DNA of 64,000 bases from the NCBI RefSeq assembly GCF_010726085.1, contig NZ_AP022560.1, positions 6,014,001-6,078,000 of the forward strand, in the 5' to 3' direction. The notes beneath the pieces are model-generated. The model saw only the letters and a list, made by a program, of their open reading frames with translations. It was not told the DNA's origin and did no database searches. Position numbers and translations under genes: made by a program. Shown in pieces: positions 53,165 through 63,194 of the stretch (the first letter of the stretch is position 1; each line of letters starts with the position of its first letter). The stretch is from Mycolicibacterium moriokaense. GTDB lineage: Bacteria; Actinomycetota; Actinomycetes; Mycobacteriales; Mycobacteriaceae.

Positions 53165-54284
53165 GCAGCGACACGCAGGCTCGGGCGATCGCCAGTTCTT
53201 CGTCGGTGGGAATCACCAGCACCGTGGTGGCCGAATCGTCCGTCGAAATCCGGCGCGCCTCCCTGCGGGGGTCGGCGTTGAGTTGTTCGTCGAGTTCGAC
53301 ACCCAATGCGGTCATGCCGCTCAGTGCGTCGCGCCGGACGGCGGCGTCGTTCTCGCCGACACCCGCGGTGAAGGTGATGACGTCGGCGGTGCCCAGCACG
53401 GCGAGGTAGGCGCCGATGTACTTGCGCAGCCGGTGGATGTACACGTCGTAGGCCAATTGTGCTGCCGCATCACCTGATGCGATCTGCCGATGGACCACGC
53501 GGAAGTCGATGTGGCCGCCGAGACCCAGCATCCCGGAGCGCCGGTTGAGCATCGACTCGATGTCGTCGACGCTCATCTTCGCGGTGCGCCACAGATAGGC
53601 GTAGATCCCGGGGTCGAGGTCGCCCGAGCGCGTGCCCATCACCAGGCCCTCCATCGGCGTCAGACCCATCGATGTCTCCACCGGCCGGCCGCCGACGATC
53701 ACCGATGCCGATGCGCCGTTGCCGAGGTGCAGCACGATCTGGCGTAGCGAATCCAGTGGGGCGCCAAGGAATTCGGCCGCCTGCTCGCTGACGTACTGGT
53801 GCGAGGTGCCGTGGAAGCCGTACCGCCGAATGCCCCACTTGGCGGCGAGATCACGGTCGATCGCATAGGTCGCCGCCGCCGGCGGCAGGTCATGGAAGAA
53901 GGCGGTGTCGAACACGGCGATGTGCGGCAGGTCGGGAAGTGCGCGGCGCGCGACCTCGATGCCGAGCAGCGCGGGCGGATTGTGCAGCGGCGCAAGCGGA
54001 GATAGCTCGTCGATCCTGGCTACCACGGCGTCATCCACGAGCGTGGGCTCGTACAGGTCCGGCCCGCCGTGCACCACCCGGTGCCCCACCGCGACCAGTC
54101 CGGTCATGTCGTCGTCCAGCTCGTCGAAGGCGGCCTGCAGTGCGGCGGCGTGATCGGGGACTCCCCCGTCCTCTTCTCCGATGCGCTCGACGATGCCGTC
54201 GGCGATGGTGTCGCCCGAATCCGCATCGACGACCGCGTATTTCAACGACGAGGACCCGGAGTTGACGACCAGCACGCGGTTCAT
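53148..54284 (-). CDS. ackA: acetate kinase
   Basis: A 378-residue ASKHA-fold kinase interconverting acetyl phosphate and acetate with ATP. Signatures are [14 protein letters not shown] (about residues 4-17), [21 protein letters not shown] near residue 160, [12 protein letters not shown] near residue 190, and [13 protein letters not shown] near residue 315. It is slightly shorter than the usual ~390-400 residues. The ATG at 54284 overlaps the pta stop by four bases. It corresponds to Rv0409. Confidence 0.95.
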
Positions 54285-56353
54285 AGGGCCTGCGCCTGGA
54301 TCGCGGTGATGGCAACGGTGTTCACGATGTCCTCGACCAATGCACCCCTCGACAGATCGTTCACTGGTTTCCTCAGGCCCTGCAGGACCGGTCCGATCGC
54401 GATCGCGCCCGCGCTTCGCTGCACCGCCTTGTAGGTGTTGTTGCCCGTGTTGAGGTCGGGGAAGATCAACACGGTCGCACGCCCGGCGACCTTGGAGTCG
54501 GGCATCTTCGTCTTGGCCACCGACGGTTCGACCGCGGCGTCGTACTGGATCGGCCCGTCGACCAACAGGTCGGGTTCCCGCTGGCGTACGAGTTCCGTTG
54601 CGGTCCTGACCTTGTCGACATCCGCGCCGGTTCCGCTGGTGCCGGTCGAATACGACAGCATGGCGACGCGCGGGTCGATGCCAAACCTGGCTGCGGTGCG
54701 TGCCGAGGAGATCGCGATGTCGGCGAGCTGTTCGGCCGTCGGATCCGGCACGATCGCGCAGTCGCCGTAGGCGAGTACGCGGTCCGACAGGCACATCAGG
54801 AAGATGCTCGACACCGTCGATACGTCGGGCAGCGTCTTGATGATCTCGAACGCGGGCCGCACGGTGTGGGCGGTGGTGTGCCTGGCGCCCGACACCATGC
54901 CGTCCACCATGTCGTTGTGCACCAACATGGTGCCGAAGTACGACACGTCGTGGATGATCTCGCGGGCCTGCTCGACCGTCACCCCCTTGCGCTTTCGGAG
55001 TTCTGCGTACTGTTCGGCGAACTGGTCACAGAGCTCGCTGGTCTGCGGGTTGAGTACCGTTGCCGACGACAGGTCGAGGCCGAGTTCGGCTGCGCGCGCC
55101 CGGATCCGGGCTTCCTCGCCGAGGATGGTCAGATCGGCGACGCCGCGCGCAAGCAGGCGGCCCGCCGCGGTGAGGATGCGATCGTCGTCGCCCTCCGGCA
55201 GCACAATGTGCTTGCGGTCCGAGCGCGCCCAGTCCAGCAGCTGGTAGGTGAACATCTGCGGGGTCACCACCGACGGAATCGCAATGCTCAACTGCGCCAG
55301 TAGATCCGCGGTGTCGACGTACTCCTCCATCAGCGCGAGCGCGGTGTCGATCTTGCGCAGCGAGGTGGCCGTGACCCGGCCCCGCGTCGCCGCCACCCGG
55401 CTGGCCGTCTCGAAGGTGCCGAACCTCGTCGCGATGATCGGCACTCGCAGGTCCAGCCCGGACACCAGCGATGCGATCGACGGGTGCAGCTCCAGTCCGC
55501 CATTGAGGATGAGGCAGCTCAGCGACGGAAAGCCCGCTGCGGCATGGGCACTCACGACGGCGAGGACGACGTCGGAGCGGTCGCCGGCCGTGATGACGGC
55601 CACGCCTTCCTTGAGCCGCTCGAGCACGTGCTCGGCGGTCATGCCCGCCACCAGCACATGCATCGCCTCGCGTGACAGCAGCGCGGGATCGCCCGCGATC
55701 ACGGTGCCCTCGACGGCTACCTGTAGCTCGGCGACCGACGGGGCGACCAACAGCGGTTCCTCGGGTAGCACGTAGCACTTCGGGCCGAACGGCTCGAGCG
55801 CCGCCGCGACGGCTGCCATCGCGCTCGGGTCGCAGCGGTTGGCCACCACCGCCGCGGTGTGCGCGTGCTGGGCACGGATCTCGGCCAGACAGACGTCGGT
55901 GATCTGCGCGACCTGCTCGGGGCTGCGGTCCTTGGCTTTCACCGCCAGGACGACGGGTGCACCGAGATTGGCCGCGATGCGCGCGTTGGTCGACAGCTCG
56001 CTGGGTGCGGCGACGTCGGTGTAGTCGCTGCCGACGATGAGGACCGCGTCGCACTGGTCGGCCACCCGGTGGTAGCGGTCGACGATGTCACCGATGGCGG
56101 AGTCGGGGTCTTCGTGCAGCTGCTGGTAACTGACTCCGACGCACTCCTCATAGGACAGCCCCGCTGTCGCCTGGGAGAGCAGGAGCTCGAGGATGTAGTC
56201 GCGCTCCTCGCCGAGGCGGGTGATCGGCCGGAACACGCCGACCTTTGCCACCGTCGCCGCCAATCGATGCAGAATTCCCAGCGCGATCGTCGACTTACCC
56301 GTGTCGCCCTCGGGTGAAGCGATGTAGATCCCGGAATTCGGCTTGGCGGGCAC
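54281..56353 (-). CDS. pta: phosphate acetyltransferase (long, DRTGG type)
   Basis: A 690-residue enzyme converting acetyl-CoA and phosphate into acetyl phosphate. The N-terminal P-loop-like part begins [19 protein letters not shown] central DRTGG-type region is followed by the catalytic C-terminal half (about 365-690), with [39 protein letters not shown] and [18 protein letters not shown]. This is the long Pta form found in enterobacteria and mycobacteria (Rv0408). It is coupled to ackA by ATGA. In M. tuberculosis fgd1 follows on this side, whereas here a different cluster begins. Confidence 0.95.
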
Positions 56354-56650: not shown

Positions 56651-58123
56651 TTGGAAACGACGCTCGCCGCTTCCGTGCGCCCGTTTGTTCTGGTTGATGA
56701 GCCACCACCACCCCCGTCGATACCCCTCACGCAGCGATACTGGCCCCGCCTCGCGTTCGTCGGCGCCCTGGCGTTCGGGGCCTATGCCTTCGCGATCGCA
56801 GAGGTGATCGGCCACGCATTGACGGGTTCGCGGGCGATACTCCTGGTTGTCCTGCCCATCCACATGGCCGTCATCGCCACCGGATACCGGCAACCACCGC
56901 GGGGCATTAGCGATGGTGAGTCGGACTGGATAGTCGCCGTCCTGGTCGGGATCCTCGGCTTCACCGGACTTCACCTGTTACAGCATCGGACGCCGACCTT
57001 GGCGACGCTGTGGCAGCTGAACCTGTTCGGCGTCATCCTCTGGACCGCGTGCCTGTTCGCGATCATGCTCGGAGTTCGGTACGTCGTGCAGATGTGGCAG
57101 ATGTGGCTGTTCGCGTTGTGCTGCGTCAGCCCGCTGCCGTTTCTCATGACGGCGGCCGCCTTCGGCGGGTCCGATACCACGATCGCATTGCTGACAGCCG
57201 TTGTCGGGGCCGTCGCCGTGTTTCTCGCCGGGCGCCGCGCACCGCTCGGCCACCGCACGTTGGCCACCCTCGTATGCCTGGCCACCGCGGTCGCGCTGAC
57301 ACTGATGCTGGGCGATCACCTCAGCCTCGCCGCCACGGTCGTGCTCGTCGCGGGCATCGTGCCCGTCATCGTCACGGTGGTGATGTTGTTGCGGGCCGGC
57401 GCAAACCACGAGACCACCATGACAACCACCCGGCCCAACCTGCCGCGCCGCTCACCGCTGTCGCTGGTGCCGCTGGTGCTGATGGCCGTGGCGCTGCTGG
57501 TGGTCAATCCGCCACACGCGCGGGGCATGGACGCCACGCAAGCCGCGGCTGATTGGGTGCAACGCGCCGGACTCGGTGCGCCGGAGACGTTCCCGTTCAT
57601 CACGAGGTTCGCCGGCCATGACGCCACACTGGTCCGCTATACCGTGCCCGCGGCGGCCGGCATGCCGGCGGCAGCCGTCGATGTCCTCACCGCCCGGCAG
57701 CCCTCGACGCTCCGGGATCTCGACCACATGGTCTGGTATCCGAGCAGCAGACCACTCGAATACCAGTCGGCGACAGGCGAAGCGATGCCCGCCGGTGCGC
57801 GCATCATCCACAGCAACGCCGATGCCACGACCGACGCCAACGCGGTCGACTGGTACGCCGTCACCTGGCTGTGGGATACCGGCACCGCTCATCAACGTGT
57901 CACCGTCATCGTCAATCAGGCACCTAACACCGATGCACCTCCGCCGACCCCGCAAGAGCTGTCGTTTCTCGACATGTCACTGAAACCGGCGCTGTGGTTG
58001 GCCCGCCAGCAGCCCGACGGCACCGGTCAGGTGGACCCCCTCGTCGTCGAACGCGCGGACCAGGTCATCGAACTGTTGAAGAACTCGTCCGGCCCCGAAC
58101 CCCCATCAGACACCGGTGTCTGA
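56651..58123 (+). CDS. polytopic protein with exosortase-like and EpsI-like features
   Basis: A 490-residue protein (TTG start; weak upstream signal). Residues 28-260 hold about eight hydrophobic segments, including a QMWLFALCCVSPLPFLMTAA stretch that resembles the PLP-containing helix of exosortases. The Cys/Arg/His catalytic pattern expected later in exosortases is not evident. After a membrane span at about 275-295 comes a soluble C-terminal domain (about 300-490) with MVWYPSSRPLEY and VDWYAVTWLWDTG, reminiscent of the EpsI-type domain. The assignment is tentative. Its 3' end overlaps the GT2 start by eight bases, so it belongs to the four-gene glycan-type unit. Confidence 0.75.
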   Translation: METTLAASVRPFVLVDEPPPPPSIPLTQRYWPRLAFVGALAFGAYAFAIAEVIGHALTGSRAILLVVLPIHMAVIATGYRQPPRGISDGESDWIVAVLVGILGFTGLHLLQHRTPTLATLWQLNLFGVILWTACLFAIMLGVRYVVQMWQMWLFALCCVSPLPFLMTAAAFGGSDTTIALLTAVVGAVAVFLAGRRAPLGHRTLATLVCLATAVALTLMLGDHLSLAATVVLVAGIVPVIVTVVMLLRAGANHETTMTTTRPNLPRRSPLSLVPLVLMAVALLVVNPPHARGMDATQAAADWVQRAGLGAPETFPFITRFAGHDATLVRYTVPAAAGMPAAAVDVLTARQPSTLRDLDHMVWYPSSRPLEYQSATGEAMPAGARIIHSNADATTDANAVDWYAVTWLWDTGTAHQRVTVIVNQAPNTDAPPPTPQELSFLDMSLKPALWLARQQPDGTGQVDPLVVERADQVIELLKNSSGPEPPSDTGV

Positions 58124-59540
58124 GACGTCCGAAGCGGTTGTGCTGCCGGCGCACATGTCGGCACGCACACTGCTCGGGCGCACCTCGCTGATCATCCTCG
58201 CCATCCTGGCGGCGGTGCTCATCACCGTCATCATCTTCTGGCCGCACGACATACCCCCGCTGATCACCGGGTCGATCGCGCTGCTGTATCTCTGCTCGAC
58301 GATCGACCGCAACTATCTCGTGCTCAGGGGTCTGAAGTCCTCGGCCCTGATCCGCGTCAGCGACGACGAGGCGAGGATGCTGACCGACGGGGAACTGCCG
58401 GTCTACACCGTCCTGCTGCCCGTCTACGACGAACCGGCCATCGTCTCCAATCTCATCAATGGCGTGGGCAAGCTCGACTACCCGAGCGACAAGCTCGAGA
58501 TCCTGCTGCTGGTGGAAGAGGACGATATCGCCACGCAGAACGCACTTTTCGATGCGGACCTGCGTTCCGTGCGGATCGTCCTGGTGCCCCACAGCCTGCC
58601 CAAGACGAAGCCCAAGGCGTGCAACTACGGTATGTCTCTGCCCGATCTGCGGGGCGAGCTGGTGACGATCTACGACGCCGAGGACATTCCCGACCCCCTG
58701 CAGCTGCGACGCGCGGTCGTCGCTTTCCGCCGCACCCCACCCGACGTGGGCTGCCTGCAGGCGCGGCTCGCGTACTTCAACGAGCGCCAGAACCTGCTCA
58801 CCCGGTGGTTTTCGCTGGAGTATGACCAGTGGTTCGGAGTCGTGTTGCCCGCCGTCGACGAGCTGCGGTGCGTGGTGCCGCTGGGCGGAACGTCCAACCA
58901 CATGTCGACCAGGGTGTGGCGCGAGATCGGTGGCTGGGACGAGTTCAACGTCACCGAGGATGCCGACCTGGGTGTTCGCCTGGCCCGACACGGCTACCGG
59001 ACACTCATTCTCGACTCGATCACGTTGGAGGAAGCCAACTCTGACGTGGTCAACTGGATCAGGCAGCGGTCCCGTTGGTACAAGGGTTACCTGCAGACCA
59101 TGATGGTCCACCTGCGGACACCGGCCGACCTGCGAAAGACAGTCGGTACCAAGGCGACGCTGCGGCTGGTCAACATGACCGGCGGAGTGCCACTGACCGC
59201 CGCCATCAACCTGGTCTTCTGGTTCATCATGGTGGTGTGGGTGCTCGGCAGGCCCCAATTCGTGACCGAGCTCTTCCCGCCGATCACCTATTACATCTGC
59301 CTGGCGCTGTTCATCGTCGGCGCACCGCTTTCGGTCTTCGTCGGGCTGATCGCCACCCAGGCACTCGGCAAGCCCTACCTGTGGTGGGCCGCGCTCCTGG
59401 CGCCCATGTATTGGGTGCTGCAGTCGATTGCCGCGTTGAAAGCCCTGTACCAGTTCGTTTTCCGGCCGTTCTTCTGGGAGAAGACGGTGCATGGTCTCAC
59501 CCACCAGGCAGCCTCGACCCCAACCTCTGGAGGAAACTGA
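58116..59540 (+). CDS. membrane glycosyltransferase family 2, processive synthase type
   Basis: A 474-residue GT2 (GTG start). Two N-terminal TM helices (about residues 22-65) are followed by a cytosolic catalytic domain with VLLPVYDEP near residue 98, VEEDD near residue 132, DAED (DxD-type) near residue 187, TEDADLG near residue 280 and QRSRW near residue 318. Four C-terminal TM helices complete the protein. The D, DxD, TED, QxxRW set is that of cellulose- and hyaluronan-type synthases. There is no PilZ domain. It probably polymerises a sugar and moves it through the membrane; the sugar is unknown. The next gene is BcsB-like and starts within its stop (TGATG). Confidence 0.9.
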   Translation: MSETSEAVVLPAHMSARTLLGRTSLIILAILAAVLITVIIFWPHDIPPLITGSIALLYLCSTIDRNYLVLRGLKSSALIRVSDDEARMLTDGELPVYTVLLPVYDEPAIVSNLINGVGKLDYPSDKLEILLLVEEDDIATQNALFDADLRSVRIVLVPHSLPKTKPKACNYGMSLPDLRGELVTIYDAEDIPDPLQLRRAVVAFRRTPPDVGCLQARLAYFNERQNLLTRWFSLEYDQWFGVVLPAVDELRCVVPLGGTSNHMSTRVWREIGGWDEFNVTEDADLGVRLARHGYRTLILDSITLEEANSDVVNWIRQRSRWYKGYLQTMMVHLRTPADLRKTVGTKATLRLVNMTGGVPLTAAINLVFWFIMVVWVLGRPQFVTELFPPITYYICLALFIVGAPLSVFVGLIATQALGKPYLWWAALLAPMYWVLQSIAALKALYQFVFRPFFWEKTVHGLTHQAASTPTSGGN

Positions 59541-61525
59541 TGCACGCGATCGCGCGGACGCTGATCGTGGCGGTTGTCGCCGCCGGCGCAGTCGTCGGCC
59601 AGACGGTGATCGCGGGCGGACCTGTCGTGTCGGCACAGCCGGACATAGTCGAACCGGTCGAACCGGTCGAACCGGTCGAACCAGTCGAACCAGTCGAAGT
59701 GGTCGAACCAGTCGAACCGAACGTGACGCCGGCGATCAGCTGGACACAGTTGGGCCTGCCAGAGCGGATGGACCTGATCGGTGCGAACCAGAAGTTCGAC
59801 ACATCGATTCCCGTGCCGGAAGGTATCGGCCCCGCGCTGCTGACCGGCGAGATCGGATCGGTCGTCAACGTGATCGACGGCCGCGTCGACGTCATGGATT
59901 CCCGCGGCATCGTGCTCGGCAGCATCGGCGTGCCTGTCGGCGTCTCCACGGCGCCGTTCGTGGTCGACATCACCGCCGCACAGGTGACCGAGGGCCGAGC
60001 ACCGCTGAGTTTTATTCTGCGCGATAACAACCCGCCGTCGAACAGCTGCTCGGTGCCGCCCTCGCTCACCCTGAGCCAGCTCATGACCACGTACTCGGGC
60101 CCACCCCCGGACCCCACCACCGTCGCCGGATTCCTGCCCGGCTACCTCGACCAGATCCTGATCAACGTCGGTCCCCACCCGAGCGGCAGCCAGCAGCAGG
60201 CCGCTCTCAATCTGGTGTCCGCCCTGACTCGCGTCTACCGTCCGATGCCCGTGCGGATCACGGTCACCACCACCGAGTTCCCACCGTTGGCGGGCAGCCC
60301 GCTGACGCGCGTGATCGACATGCGCGACGGGGAACAGGCGGGCATCGCGGTCGAGAACCCGGGCACCCCCAACGCCGTGTTGGCGATCACCGGCACCGGT
60401 GACGAACTGATGCAGCAGGTGGACCTGCTCACCGACCGACGCATCGGACTGGCGCAAACCGATTCTGCGGTGGTGCTTTCCGCCCGCACCGATGTGGCTC
60501 AGTCGACCAACATCAAGACATTCGGCCAGCTCGGCATGACGGGTTCGACGTCGGTTCTCGGGACCAGCACGCTCTACGCGGGATTCGATGTCAGCGAGTT
60601 CGGGGTCGGGTCCATCAGTAACGCCACCATTCACCTGAAGGCGAAGTACACCCCCATCAGCGGCGGCGAGGGATCGATTCTCATCCGTTCGGGTTCCACC
60701 GTGGTCGCCACCCACACCCTGGACAACTCCGGCGTCCTCGACCTCACCGGTGAGATTCCGCCGGAGTCGATCACCTCGAATATCGGTATGGCGATGGAAC
60801 TTCGGTACGTGCCACGCCAGGAATGCGCACCGATGAACGACCGGATGACGTTCGCACTCGACCCCGCATCGACGGTGGCCGTCAGCCCCGGCACACACAA
60901 CCGGGGCGGGTTCCCCATTCTGCCGATGGCGTTCACCCCGGAGTTCGACGTCGCGATCGACAGCCCCGAGCACCTACCGCACGCCGCACAGGCGATCAAC
61001 CTGATGGGACAGCACACCGGGGTGATGCTTCGGCCACGGCTCACCGCCTTCTCGGCCGCCGCCGCATCGAGCACCCCGCTGCTCGCCGTCACCAGCAGCG
61101 ACGAACTGGCCAAGGCGAACATGAAAGCGCCGCTGCTACCCGGCGGTCCGAACACGGTCGAGGTCACCGGAGCCACGTCCACCGACGTCGACCTGAAGGG
61201 CGCGCTGGGTGTCGTGCAGGCATTCACCGACAAGGACCGCACTGTGCTGGCCGTGTCCGGCAGCGGCGACTGGTCGTTGGTCGACGCCAGCTTCGAATAC
61301 ATCCGTTCGTTGCCGAACCGGTGGGCCTCGCTGACCGGAGACGTCGTCGCAACCGGCGCGGCCTACGAGACGGTGAACCTCACCGTTCGCGAAGGCGGGG
61401 GCCTCGTCAACGAGTACCCAGGCGACCCGTGGAAGTGGTGGGCCTGGGCGACGATCGGATTGGGCGGCTGCGCGGTGCTCGCTGCGGCCATATGGGTGGT
61501 TGTCCGGCGACGTGCCAGGAGCTGA
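59540..61525 (+). CDS. BcsB-like membrane-anchored periplasmic protein
   Basis: A 661-residue exported protein. A signal peptide covers residues 1-32, a Val-Glu-Pro repeat about 37-60, then a long extracytoplasmic region with alternating beta-rich segments. These include a jelly-roll-like part (IPVPEGIGPALLTG, STLYAGFDVSEFGVG) and flavodoxin-like repeats (GTPNAVLAITGTGDELMQQV, STPLLAVTSSDELAKAN). One C-terminal TM helix (about 632-654) and a basic tail follow. This layout matches BcsB, which guides nascent polymer out of BcsA-type synthases. Length is a little below E. coli BcsB (779). ATG 59540 has GGAGGA upstream. No BcsC or BcsZ homolog was seen. Confidence 0.82.
   Translation: MHAIARTLIVAVVAAGAVVGQTVIAGGPVVSAQPDIVEPVEPVEPVEPVEPVEVVEPVEPNVTPAISWTQLGLPERMDLIGANQKFDTSIPVPEGIGPALLTGEIGSVVNVIDGRVDVMDSRGIVLGSIGVPVGVSTAPFVVDITAAQVTEGRAPLSFILRDNNPPSNSCSVPPSLTLSQLMTTYSGPPPDPTTVAGFLPGYLDQILINVGPHPSGSQQQAALNLVSALTRVYRPMPVRITVTTTEFPPLAGSPLTRVIDMRDGEQAGIAVENPGTPNAVLAITGTGDELMQQVDLLTDRRIGLAQTDSAVVLSARTDVAQSTNIKTFGQLGMTGSTSVLGTSTLYAGFDVSEFGVGSISNATIHLKAKYTPISGGEGSILIRSGSTVVATHTLDNSGVLDLTGEIPPESITSNIGMAMELRYVPRQECAPMNDRMTFALDPASTVAVSPGTHNRGGFPILPMAFTPEFDVAIDSPEHLPHAAQAINLMGQHTGVMLRPRLTAFSAAAASSTPLLAVTSSDELAKANMKAPLLPGGPNTVEVTGATSTDVDLKGALGVVQAFTDKDRTVLAVSGSGDWSLVDASFEYIRSLPNRWASLTGDVVATGAAYETVNLTVREGGGLVNEYPGDPWKWWAWATIGLGGCAVLAAAIWVVVRRRARS
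59648..59719 (+). repeat. nine-base tandem repeat encoding Val-Glu-Pro units
   Basis: Eight consecutive nine-base units of GTCGAACCG/GTCGAACCA (the sixth reads GTCGAAGTG) encode Val-Glu-Pro repeats directly after the signal peptide of the BcsB-like protein. The units are nearly identical at DNA level, so copy number may vary between strains by slippage without breaking the frame. The encoded segment is probably an extended spacer between membrane or cell wall and the folded domain. Confidence 0.9.
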
Positions 61526-61529
61526 CACC

Positions 61530-63194
61530 ATGACGGCACCGGCAAGGCGTTGGGGCATCGCGCTTTTCGCGGTCCTCACCGCGTTCTACTTCGCCGTCGG
61601 TGCGGTGCTCATTCTGCGGTACAACATGTTCGACCCGGATGCGCCGAGCCGGGTGGCCAACGCCGGATATGTGGTGATGAGTCGCCACCCCCACCTCTCC
61701 GCTATCGGATTCGTCTGGAACCCGCTGCCCAGCCTTGTCGAAGTGCCCGTACTGCAGCTCAGCCACTGGTGGCCGGAGCTGAAGACGCACGGGCTCGCCG
61801 GAGTGGCGCAGAGCGCCCTGTTCATGGCGGGTGCGGCGGTGATGGTTCGGCGGATCGCGCTGGACCGCGGCGTCGGCGACGTATGGCGCTGGCTCGCAGT
61901 GGCGTGCTTCGCGCTGCAGCCCATGATCATCATCTACGGCGCCTCCGGGATGAGCGAAGCCGCGCAGGTGTTCTGCGTGCTGTGGTGTGCCCGTCACTTG
62001 ATGCAGTGGGTGAGCAAGCGGCGGGTGGGCGATCTCGGTTGGGCGGGAGTCGCTTTGGGCGTCGGCTACCTGGCTCGGTACGAGATCGTCGCCGCCGCCT
62101 GCGGCGCCGCCCTTTTGGTCGCCGTGATCGCCTTCCGCCGTTCCGAACGCGGCAACCGGCTCAACTCCGCGGTTCTCGCCGTGATCATCGTGCTGTTCCC
62201 CCTCGCGGCGGCACTCGCGATATGGGCGTTCACCGGGTGGGTGGTCTCCGGTGAGGCGTTCGCGACGCTGACGTCGCAGTACGGCAACGGAAGTCAGGTG
62301 GCCGCCGCCGCCGAACGCGCGGGCCCGCATATGAAGGCCGCCTCCGACGACTGGGTCGTTATCTCCGCCCGAATACTGGGGATGCAGCCGTTCGTCGGGC
62401 TGGCATCTGCGGGCGCGGTGGTGCTCGCAGTACTGTGCAGGAAAGCCGATGCGCTGGTCCCCGTCTTCACGTTCGGCCCGATCCTGGCCTTCGCGGCGTG
62501 GAGCCAATACTCGTCGACCACGTTCGGCTGGTTCCGTTTCTATCTGCTCGCCGTCCCGCTGGTGGTGTGCATCGCGTTGGCGTCCTGGGAGCCCGTTGCC
62601 TCTGCCGCGCGGGCTGCGCGCGCGTGGTGGCGGGCGGACAGCATCCCGAGCCGAGTGGGTGCGGGACTGCTGTGCGCGTCCCTGACGGTTGGACTGCCCG
62701 TGACGGTGCTGGCGATGTCGAACGAGCGGATCGGCAACCAGCAGTTGCAGTATGGGTTGAAGTCGCTCATCTATCCCGAGGACTATCCGCCCACCGAACA
62801 GTGGTACCGACGGCTGATGGTCAACGACCGCTCGTTGGCGCAATACTTCGATCGTAAGCACCTGCCTGAGGGGTCCGTCCTGATGGACACCTTCAACACG
62901 TGGGGTGTCTGGCTGGCGTCGAAGAACCCGAAACAGTTCGTCATCACAAGCGATTACGACTTCACCGCGGTGATGAACCGGCCGTGGGACTTCGGCGTGC
63001 AGTACATCGTCGCGAGCAATCCGGCGATCTCCCAAGCGGACGCGTTGAACATCCGCTATCCGTCGCTGTGGGCGGACGGTGCCGGCCTCGGCACACTGGT
63101 GCACTCCGTCTACGGCGCTACGGGCGACGAACGGTTCCGCATCTACCGCACCACGGGGCGTCCGGCCCCGCCGAGTGCTCAGACCACCGGATAA
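61530..63194 (+). CDS. multi-span membrane protein, GT39/GT-C-like
   Basis: A 554-residue protein with about ten hydrophobic segments in residues 1-415, followed by a soluble C-terminal domain (about 420-554). The first external loop contains YNMFDPDAPSRVANAGYV, with acidic residues placed as in the GT-C loop of lipid-linked sugar transferases. RYEIVAAACGAAL lies in a later helix. Similarity to GT39/ArnT-type enzymes is structural only and no family-specific catalytic motif is certain. ATG 61530 (AGGAG upstream) follows the BcsB-like stop by four bases. It may glycosylate or modify the polymer or supply a lipid-linked sugar; this is inferred. Confidence 0.78.
   Translation: MTAPARRWGIALFAVLTAFYFAVGAVLILRYNMFDPDAPSRVANAGYVVMSRHPHLSAIGFVWNPLPSLVEVPVLQLSHWWPELKTHGLAGVAQSALFMAGAAVMVRRIALDRGVGDVWRWLAVACFALQPMIIIYGASGMSEAAQVFCVLWCARHLMQWVSKRRVGDLGWAGVALGVGYLARYEIVAAACGAALLVAVIAFRRSERGNRLNSAVLAVIIVLFPLAAALAIWAFTGWVVSGEAFATLTSQYGNGSQVAAAAERAGPHMKAASDDWVVISARILGMQPFVGLASAGAVVLAVLCRKADALVPVFTFGPILAFAAWSQYSSTTFGWFRFYLLAVPLVVCIALASWEPVASAARAARAWWRADSIPSRVGAGLLCASLTVGLPVTVLAMSNERIGNQQLQYGLKSLIYPEDYPPTEQWYRRLMVNDRSLAQYFDRKHLPEGSVLMDTFNTWGVWLASKNPKQFVITSDYDFTAVMNRPWDFGVQYIVASNPAISQADALNIRYPSLWADGAGLGTLVHSVYGATGDERFRIYRTTGRPAPPSAQTTG

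Follow-up and report, generated by a model that had tools for sequence, protein, structure and literature searches.

A conserved mycobacterial four-gene cluster encoding a BcsA-like glycosyltransferase and a BcsB-fold partner

Gene organisation of the cluster

We analysed a 64,000-nucleotide stretch (G000:C1:6014001-6078000, hereafter the window) of the genome of an environmental-type mycobacterium, assembled as a single contig of 6.2 Mb. An earlier note on this DNA had read four coupled genes near its end as an undescribed, self-contained machine for the synthesis and export of a secreted glycan. The coordinates confirmed a coupled four-gene cluster (g1 to g4) on the + strand at 56651-63194, with the 8-base overlap, TGATG overlap and 4-base gap given in that note. 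The features of the cluster are as follows, with transmembrane (TM) segments predicted from hydropathy.

56651-58123, + strand: g1, 490 aa, TTG start with AAAGGTGA upstream; nine TM segments and a soluble C-terminal domain; relative of an actinobacterial exosortase at most, and then a non-catalytic one
58116-58123, + strand: 8-base overlap of g1 and g2
58116-59540, + strand: g2, 474 aa, GTG start; family 2 glycosyltransferase (GT2), BcsA-like, without PilZ; 3-5 TM segments
58674-58685, + strand: DAED motif of g2, residues 187-190 (D187-A-E-D190), at the place of the BcsA DxD; in 17/17 homologues (alignment A4)
58953-58961, + strand: TED motif of g2, residues 280-282; TEDAD in 17/17 homologues
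59064-59078, + strand: QRSRW motif of g2, residues 317-321, the QxxRW signature of processive GT2 enzymes; in 17/17 homologues
59538-59542, + strand: TGATG stop/start overlap of g2 and g3
59540-61525, + strand: g3, 661 aa, ATG start (the mechanical open reading frame begins further upstream); exported BcsB-fold protein, predicted order beta-sandwich, alpha-beta, beta-sandwich, alpha-beta, C-terminal TM segment
61448-61504, + strand: C-terminal membrane anchor of g3, residues 637-655 by hydropathy; helix 630-660 in the predicted model
61526-61529, + strand: 4-base gap between g3 and g4
61530-63194, + strand: g4, 554 aa, ATG start; probable GT-C glycosyltransferase with 8-9 TM segments, a C-terminal soluble part and an invariant Asp37

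Upstream, the cluster was bounded by a divergent open reading frame on the - strand (54281-56353), which we take to encode a phosphotransacetylase-like protein. Downstream, it was bounded by a convergent gene of the endonuclease/exonuclease/phosphatase family (PF03372, Pfam), whose 3' end overlapped that of g4 by 16 bases (63179-63194). The g3 protein was 94% identical to its Mycobacterium barrassiae homologue, and the host was close to M. barrassiae.

The glycosyltransferase and its BcsB-fold partner

The g2 protein matched PF13641 in Pfam (E 1e-25), and a g2 profile found BcsA first (E 6e-18; E. coli BcsA, 1.9e-13), so that BcsA appears by sequence to be its nearest solved relative. Besides the motifs listed above, GGTSNH was present in 17/17 homologues. 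The description of g2 as a processive-type GT2 with DxD, TED and QRSRW stood for the latter two motifs, but the supposed DxD was really DAED. The predicted lack of PilZ was borne out, as no match was found in g2 (Pfam) or in the host genome at E <= 0.01, a search that matched 5 of 14 control genomes; Pfam likewise found neither GGDEF nor PilZ in any of the four cluster proteins. The best NCBIfam match of g2 was CelA with 61.6 bits, below the cellulose (TIGR03030) cut-off of 699.1, and the poly-N-acetylglucosamine model (PgaC/IcaA) was nearly as close, with 49.5 bits against a cut-off of 422. With g2 under both cut-offs, the models assign it no product.

Adjoining this BcsA-like GT2, in the cluster and across the survey loci described below, was g3. 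Its predicted model showed two beta-sandwich and two alpha/beta domains followed by a C-terminal membrane anchor, as in BcsB, and structural matching (Foldseek, VIA) aligned residues 60-619 with 7l2z_D. An N-terminal hydrophobic segment fits a signal peptide. These results upheld the reading of g3 as a BcsB-like exported protein with a C-terminal anchor; the protein pair was thus matched to BcsA/BcsB by the g2 profile on one side and the g3 fold on the other. At the level of Pfam, g3 gave no match to the BcsB family (PF03170). The best PF03170 score in the host genome was 11.1 bits, against a cut-off of 21, on a g3 paralogue, and the family model matched 3 of 19 g3 family members (best E 4.2e-4). 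Following the N-terminal hydrophobic segment, g3 carried Glu-Pro-Val repeats (window 59650-59720), a stretch longer than in most homologues of the g3 alignment (A1).

The exosortase relative and the GT-C-like protein

Neither g1 nor the members of its 24-row alignment matched any exosortase or EpsI model in Pfam or NCBIfam, and g1 had no Pfam match at all. In the host genome, PF09721 (exosortase) matched nothing even at E <= 10, and EpsI (PF11984, DUF3485) gave 0 matches at E <= 0.001. Profile comparison pointed to one remote relative, L047, an actinobacterial exosortase (PF09721, 39.1 bits, cut-off 25.7) that has a longer C-terminal part and is encoded beside a GT2. A broad 25-row g1 profile (A2 contributed 19 of its 24 rows, with five close relatives of the window protein left out, and other loci six) aligned with L047 in hhalign with a score of 69.2 over 422 columns. 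The best control scores were 14.9 among 44 other proteins with at least six predicted TM segments from the examined loci (a set with many g4 relatives that also included L045) and 6.2 among 30 block shuffles of L047. L047 was the only one of 10 exosortase-family proteins that g1 matched strongly, the other nine giving no match, and hhalign found none to a mixed alignment of 10 exosortase-family proteins, to the classical exosortase L045 or to one EpsI.

We then located in g1 the positions that we take to be the catalytic Cys, Arg and His of L047. By mafft, the Cys and His columns were gaps and the Arg column was A, G or S in 25/25 g1 proteins; by hhalign, the Cys fell on Ile178, the Arg on Ala213 and the His on a gap of the window protein. 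No Cys or His was invariant among the 25 g1 proteins (at most 19/25 and 18/25, respectively). Arg113, Arg143 and Arg329 were invariant in the family, but lay away from the catalytic Arg position of L047. With neither a Cys nor a His invariant in its family and no exosortase or EpsI model matched, g1 is best seen as at most a non-catalytic exosortase relative, linked through one protein, L047. Of the "exosortase/EpsI-like" label in the earlier note, a remote exosortase resemblance therefore survives, while the catalytic residues and EpsI do not.

Several arrangements involving exosortase or g1-like genes were seen elsewhere. In a distant actinobacterium, an exosortase with a long C-terminal part was directly followed by a GT2 (L056:8016-11170), which may be related to the form from which the g1-g2 pair arose. 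Tandem g1 copies preceded the GT2 in two genomes (G083:C1:779951-783035 and G055:C1:3466387-3469670), and g3 was flanked by g1-like genes in L019, L061 and L063.

For g4, called GT-C-like in the earlier note, the likeness to PMT proteins was weak. PF13231 (PMT_2) scored 24.9 bits, just below its cut-off of 26.1 (Pfam), and matched 5 of 9 g4 family members, g4 included, at E <= 0.1 (best 8.5e-6). Asp37 was invariant in 9/9 members and, as placed by hydropathy only, sits in the first extracytoplasmic loop. We regard g4 as a probable GT-C glycosyltransferase on this likeness.

Conservation of the four-gene set

The co-occurrence of the four genes was surveyed in 148 genomes of the same genus. Where flanks were examined, the cluster occupied two chromosomal sites, beside what we take to be pta (L001, L020, L022, L026) or between presumed rpsQ and atsA-like genes (e.g. 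L023, L025, L042), and the gene orders g1-g2-g3-g4, g3-g1-g2-g4 and g1-g3-g2-g4 were seen. With narrow profiles (thresholds of 1e-3 for g3, 1e-30 for g2, 1e-3 for g1 and 1e-20 for g4), matches were found in 61 genomes for g3, 53 for g2, 31 for g1 and 43 for g4. At the rpsQ-atsA site, many copies escaped the narrow g3 profile (A1), and the counts for g3 and g1 are therefore too low.

Adjacency in the narrow-profile count meant lying within 8 kb on the same contig, with strand disregarded. Among the GT2 places listed, 64 in number, 47 scored at least 445 bits; these were spread over 41 of the 148 genomes, and all 47 had g4 within 8 kb. Narrow profiles placed all four genes at 25 of the 47. When the remaining 22 were rescanned with broader profiles, 20 proved complete and two (L069, L075) ran into a contig edge one gene short, which brought the complete set to 45/47. 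For g3 alone, the narrow profile found it near 31 of the 47, and the broader ones added 15 of the remaining 16. None of the three partners was near the other 17 GT2 places by narrow profiles, and two of these (L043, L044) again showed the GT2 alone with broad profiles. Conservation of the cluster is thus well beyond chance, and the co-occurrence expected in the earlier note was borne out.

Counting from g3 gave a similar picture: 19 of the 21 closest g3 places had all three partners, one (G110) was cut by a contig end, and one (G111) had no partners, its g3 again standing alone with broad profiles (L040). Six of seven named loci were ordered g1-g2-g3-g4, and in the seventh, from a metagenome-assembled genome (L007), g3 lacked the others. 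These two lone g3 genes (L007:4651-6588 and L040:7438-9366), without g1, g2 and g4, lie between genes that we presume to be pta-like and fgd1-like, and each may be a remnant or a separate use.

Outside the genus, all four genes were found in another genus of the same family (L034) and in another family of the phylum (L036, where g1 scored only 35 bits), while L033 held g3, g1 and a partial g2 up to the contig end. Across the phylum, g3 matches occurred in at least 13 of 396 genomes, two of them weak (G180 and G411, E ~1e-4 to 1e-3); this is a lower bound because at most three candidates were scored per genome. A fragmented g3-like gene in another genus of the family (L035:7220-9213) was apparently decaying.

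Proposed mechanism and alternative explanations

The combination of a BcsB fold with a neighbouring GT2 that carries QxxRW, conserved as a unit, points most readily to chain synthesis and export by g2 and g3, and we consider it probable that the four genes constitute one membrane machine for a secreted polysaccharide. In such a machine, g2 would act processively, polymerising a nucleotide-activated sugar at the inner face, and the chain would be threaded through its membrane helices, as in BcsA. The g3 protein would be a BcsB-type partner anchored by its C-terminal helix, with its two beta-sandwich and two alpha/beta domains receiving and guiding the chain outside; in BcsB, the C-terminal anchor reportedly mediates the interaction with BcsA (PMC11022532, available text). 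On this model, g1 would be an exosortase-derived membrane protein that has lost its sortase chemistry and may be a permanent subunit for assembly, gating or docking to the envelope. GT-C enzymes act outside on polyprenyl-phosphate donors, and decorating the emerging chain would therefore be a natural role for g4, which may add a second sugar from such a donor. The self-contained machine of the earlier note thus keeps its BcsA-like GT2 and BcsB-fold protein in a conserved four-gene unit, with the exosortase/EpsI part corrected.

More tentatively, and with rather less confidence than in the machine itself, the cluster might represent an actinobacterial class of synthase-dependent secretion. Its marks would be a non-catalytic exosortase as a permanent subunit of a BcsA/BcsB-type system, a polyprenyl-phosphate-dependent decorating transferase, no PilZ-type cyclic di-GMP (c-di-GMP) control, delivery adapted to the mycobacterial envelope, and reuse of the BcsB module in neighbouring Wzx/Wzy pathways.

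The best surviving alternative, a genuine mycobacterial synthase for cellulose (beta-1,4-glucan), seems unlikely to us. It is in keeping with BcsA and CelA as the nearest solved relative and best NCBIfam match of g2, with the cellulose reported in mycobacterial biofilms, whose machinery is called unknown (PMC12167362, PMC6364259, available text), and with cellulase-family genes of glycoside hydrolase (GH) families GH6 and GH5 in two exopolysaccharide (EPS) loci that hold a g3 paralogue, one of them adjoining the cluster. However, 61.6 bits stand against a CelA cut-off of 699 with PgaC/IcaA nearly as close, DAED replaces DxD, PilZ is absent, a decorating transferase better suits a substituted polymer, and the GH genes lie outside the four-gene unit.

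We see little likelihood that g2 is non-processive and that the product is a glycolipid or lipid-linked oligosaccharide, finished by g4 and carried out by g3. The mycobacterial envelope is rich in glycolipid, g4 is GT-C-like, and related g3 proteins occur in Wzy-type loci, which act on lipid-linked repeats; on the other hand, QxxRW was kept in 17/17 homologues, and the BcsB fold has been described in partners that guide chains. A working exosortase in g1, anchoring some secreted protein and accompanied by the glycan genes, is very improbable: despite the profile relation over 422 columns to L047, an exosortase with a fused C-terminal domain beside a GT2, the L047 triad was unmatched in two alignments, no Cys or His is invariant, and PF09721 is without a match in the host genome at E <= 10, so that this role is largely refuted. 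That the four genes are mere neighbours has next to no chance of being true, for although g3 homologues occur without the other three, the survey refuted it with 45/47 GT2 places complete, two chromosomal sites and differing gene orders.

Relation to known systems

The statements below refer to the available text of the papers cited, and for PMC7112194 to its main text. The cluster shares with the Gram-negative BcsA-BcsB system a GT2 with TED and QxxRW and an adjacent BcsB-fold exported partner with a C-terminal anchor, but differs in the absence of PilZ, DAED for DxD, fewer predicted TM segments and two constant extra partners. Pairs of a GT2 and BcsB are not confined to Gram-negatives, where the earlier note placed them. 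In Listeria monocytogenes PssA-E, a GT2 (PssC) is followed by a BcsB orthologue (PssD) and the system is required for an EPS (PMC4125290), a BcsA/BcsB pair found by another group in C. difficile is mentioned in PMC7710045, and PF03170 matched Bacillus subtilis among our control genomes. Listeria requires the c-di-GMP receptor PssE (PMC4125290), whereas the cluster proteins show no GGDEF or PilZ by Pfam. The clostridial CcsZABHI system also combines a Gram-positive GT2 with a membrane-anchored extracellular partner, but CcsB is stated to be non-homologous to BcsB and CcsA has PilZ (PMC7710045). Streptomyces CslA-GlxA is likewise an actinobacterial two-component cellulose synthase, but GlxA is a copper oxidase said to be non-homologous to BcsB (PMC11022532); the g3 partner has the BcsB fold. 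With exosortase (EpsH)/EpsI systems, the cluster shares the profile relation of g1 to one exosortase with a fused C-terminal domain, but g1 lacks the catalytic residues and the host genome has no EpsI (PF11984) match.

We found no description of the cluster in the literature searched, which covered few subscription papers and no preprints, and a large operon survey contains "mycobacter" 0 times in its main text (PMC7112194). "Undescribed" holds to that extent; putative cellulose-synthase genes are mentioned for M. neoaurum and M. cosmeticum, and some homologues are already named "BcsB" or "cellulose synthase-like" in databases. Within that literature, what appears to be new is that the unit consistently has four parts, lacks PilZ, occurs in mycobacteria and includes g1. 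The cellulose-making machinery of mycobacteria is stated to be unknown, and M. tuberculosis to be without a BcsA or BcsB orthologue (PMC12167362, PMC6364259, PMC7952908). For other mycobacteria, the cluster supplies a specific candidate of the BcsA/BcsB type; its named carriers include M. barrassiae, M. lacusdiani, M. sediminis and M. iranicum, and close homologues of g2 and g3 are also present in the soil species M. vaccae. The cluster could help to identify the source of the sugar matrix in mycobacterial biofilms, a question that becomes testable by gene deletion in carriers. In addition, g1 would be a case of an exosortase-like protein seemingly turned into a glycan-secretion subunit.

Neighbouring loci and g3 paralogues

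Just beyond the window end, the host genome carried a Wzx/Wzy-type locus (L017:1201-16342) with an epimerase, a DUF1972 glycosyltransferase, a UDP-glucose/GDP-mannose dehydrogenase, Wzz, a GT2, a flippase and Wzy_C. Inside it lay the second g3-like protein of the genome (L017:5949-7994). The locus also encoded a protein of the GH6 family that begins with a hydrophobic segment, ~15 kb downstream of the cluster, which qualifies the earlier statement that BcsZ is lacking: none was found among the four genes by Pfam, but this cellulase-family protein lies in the neighbouring locus.

In two other genomes, g3-like proteins were encoded beside Wzz and Wzy_C (L021:11427-17401 and L024:1715-10109), the latter together with a flippase and a protein of the GH5 family. 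Among the intermediate-type g3 loci without g2 whose neighbours were scanned with Pfam, all three therefore had a BcsB-like protein inside a Wzy/Wzz-type locus, with a flippase in L017 and L024 and a cellulase-family gene in two of the three (GH6, GH5). It would be unusual for a Wzy-dependent pathway to include a protein of the BcsB type. The host genome had one more g3-like copy, its third (L018:9311-11344), adjoined by a Bac_transf sugar transferase and an amine-oxidase-like protein, presumably with ribosomal protein genes on one side and an arylsulfatase-like gene on the other.
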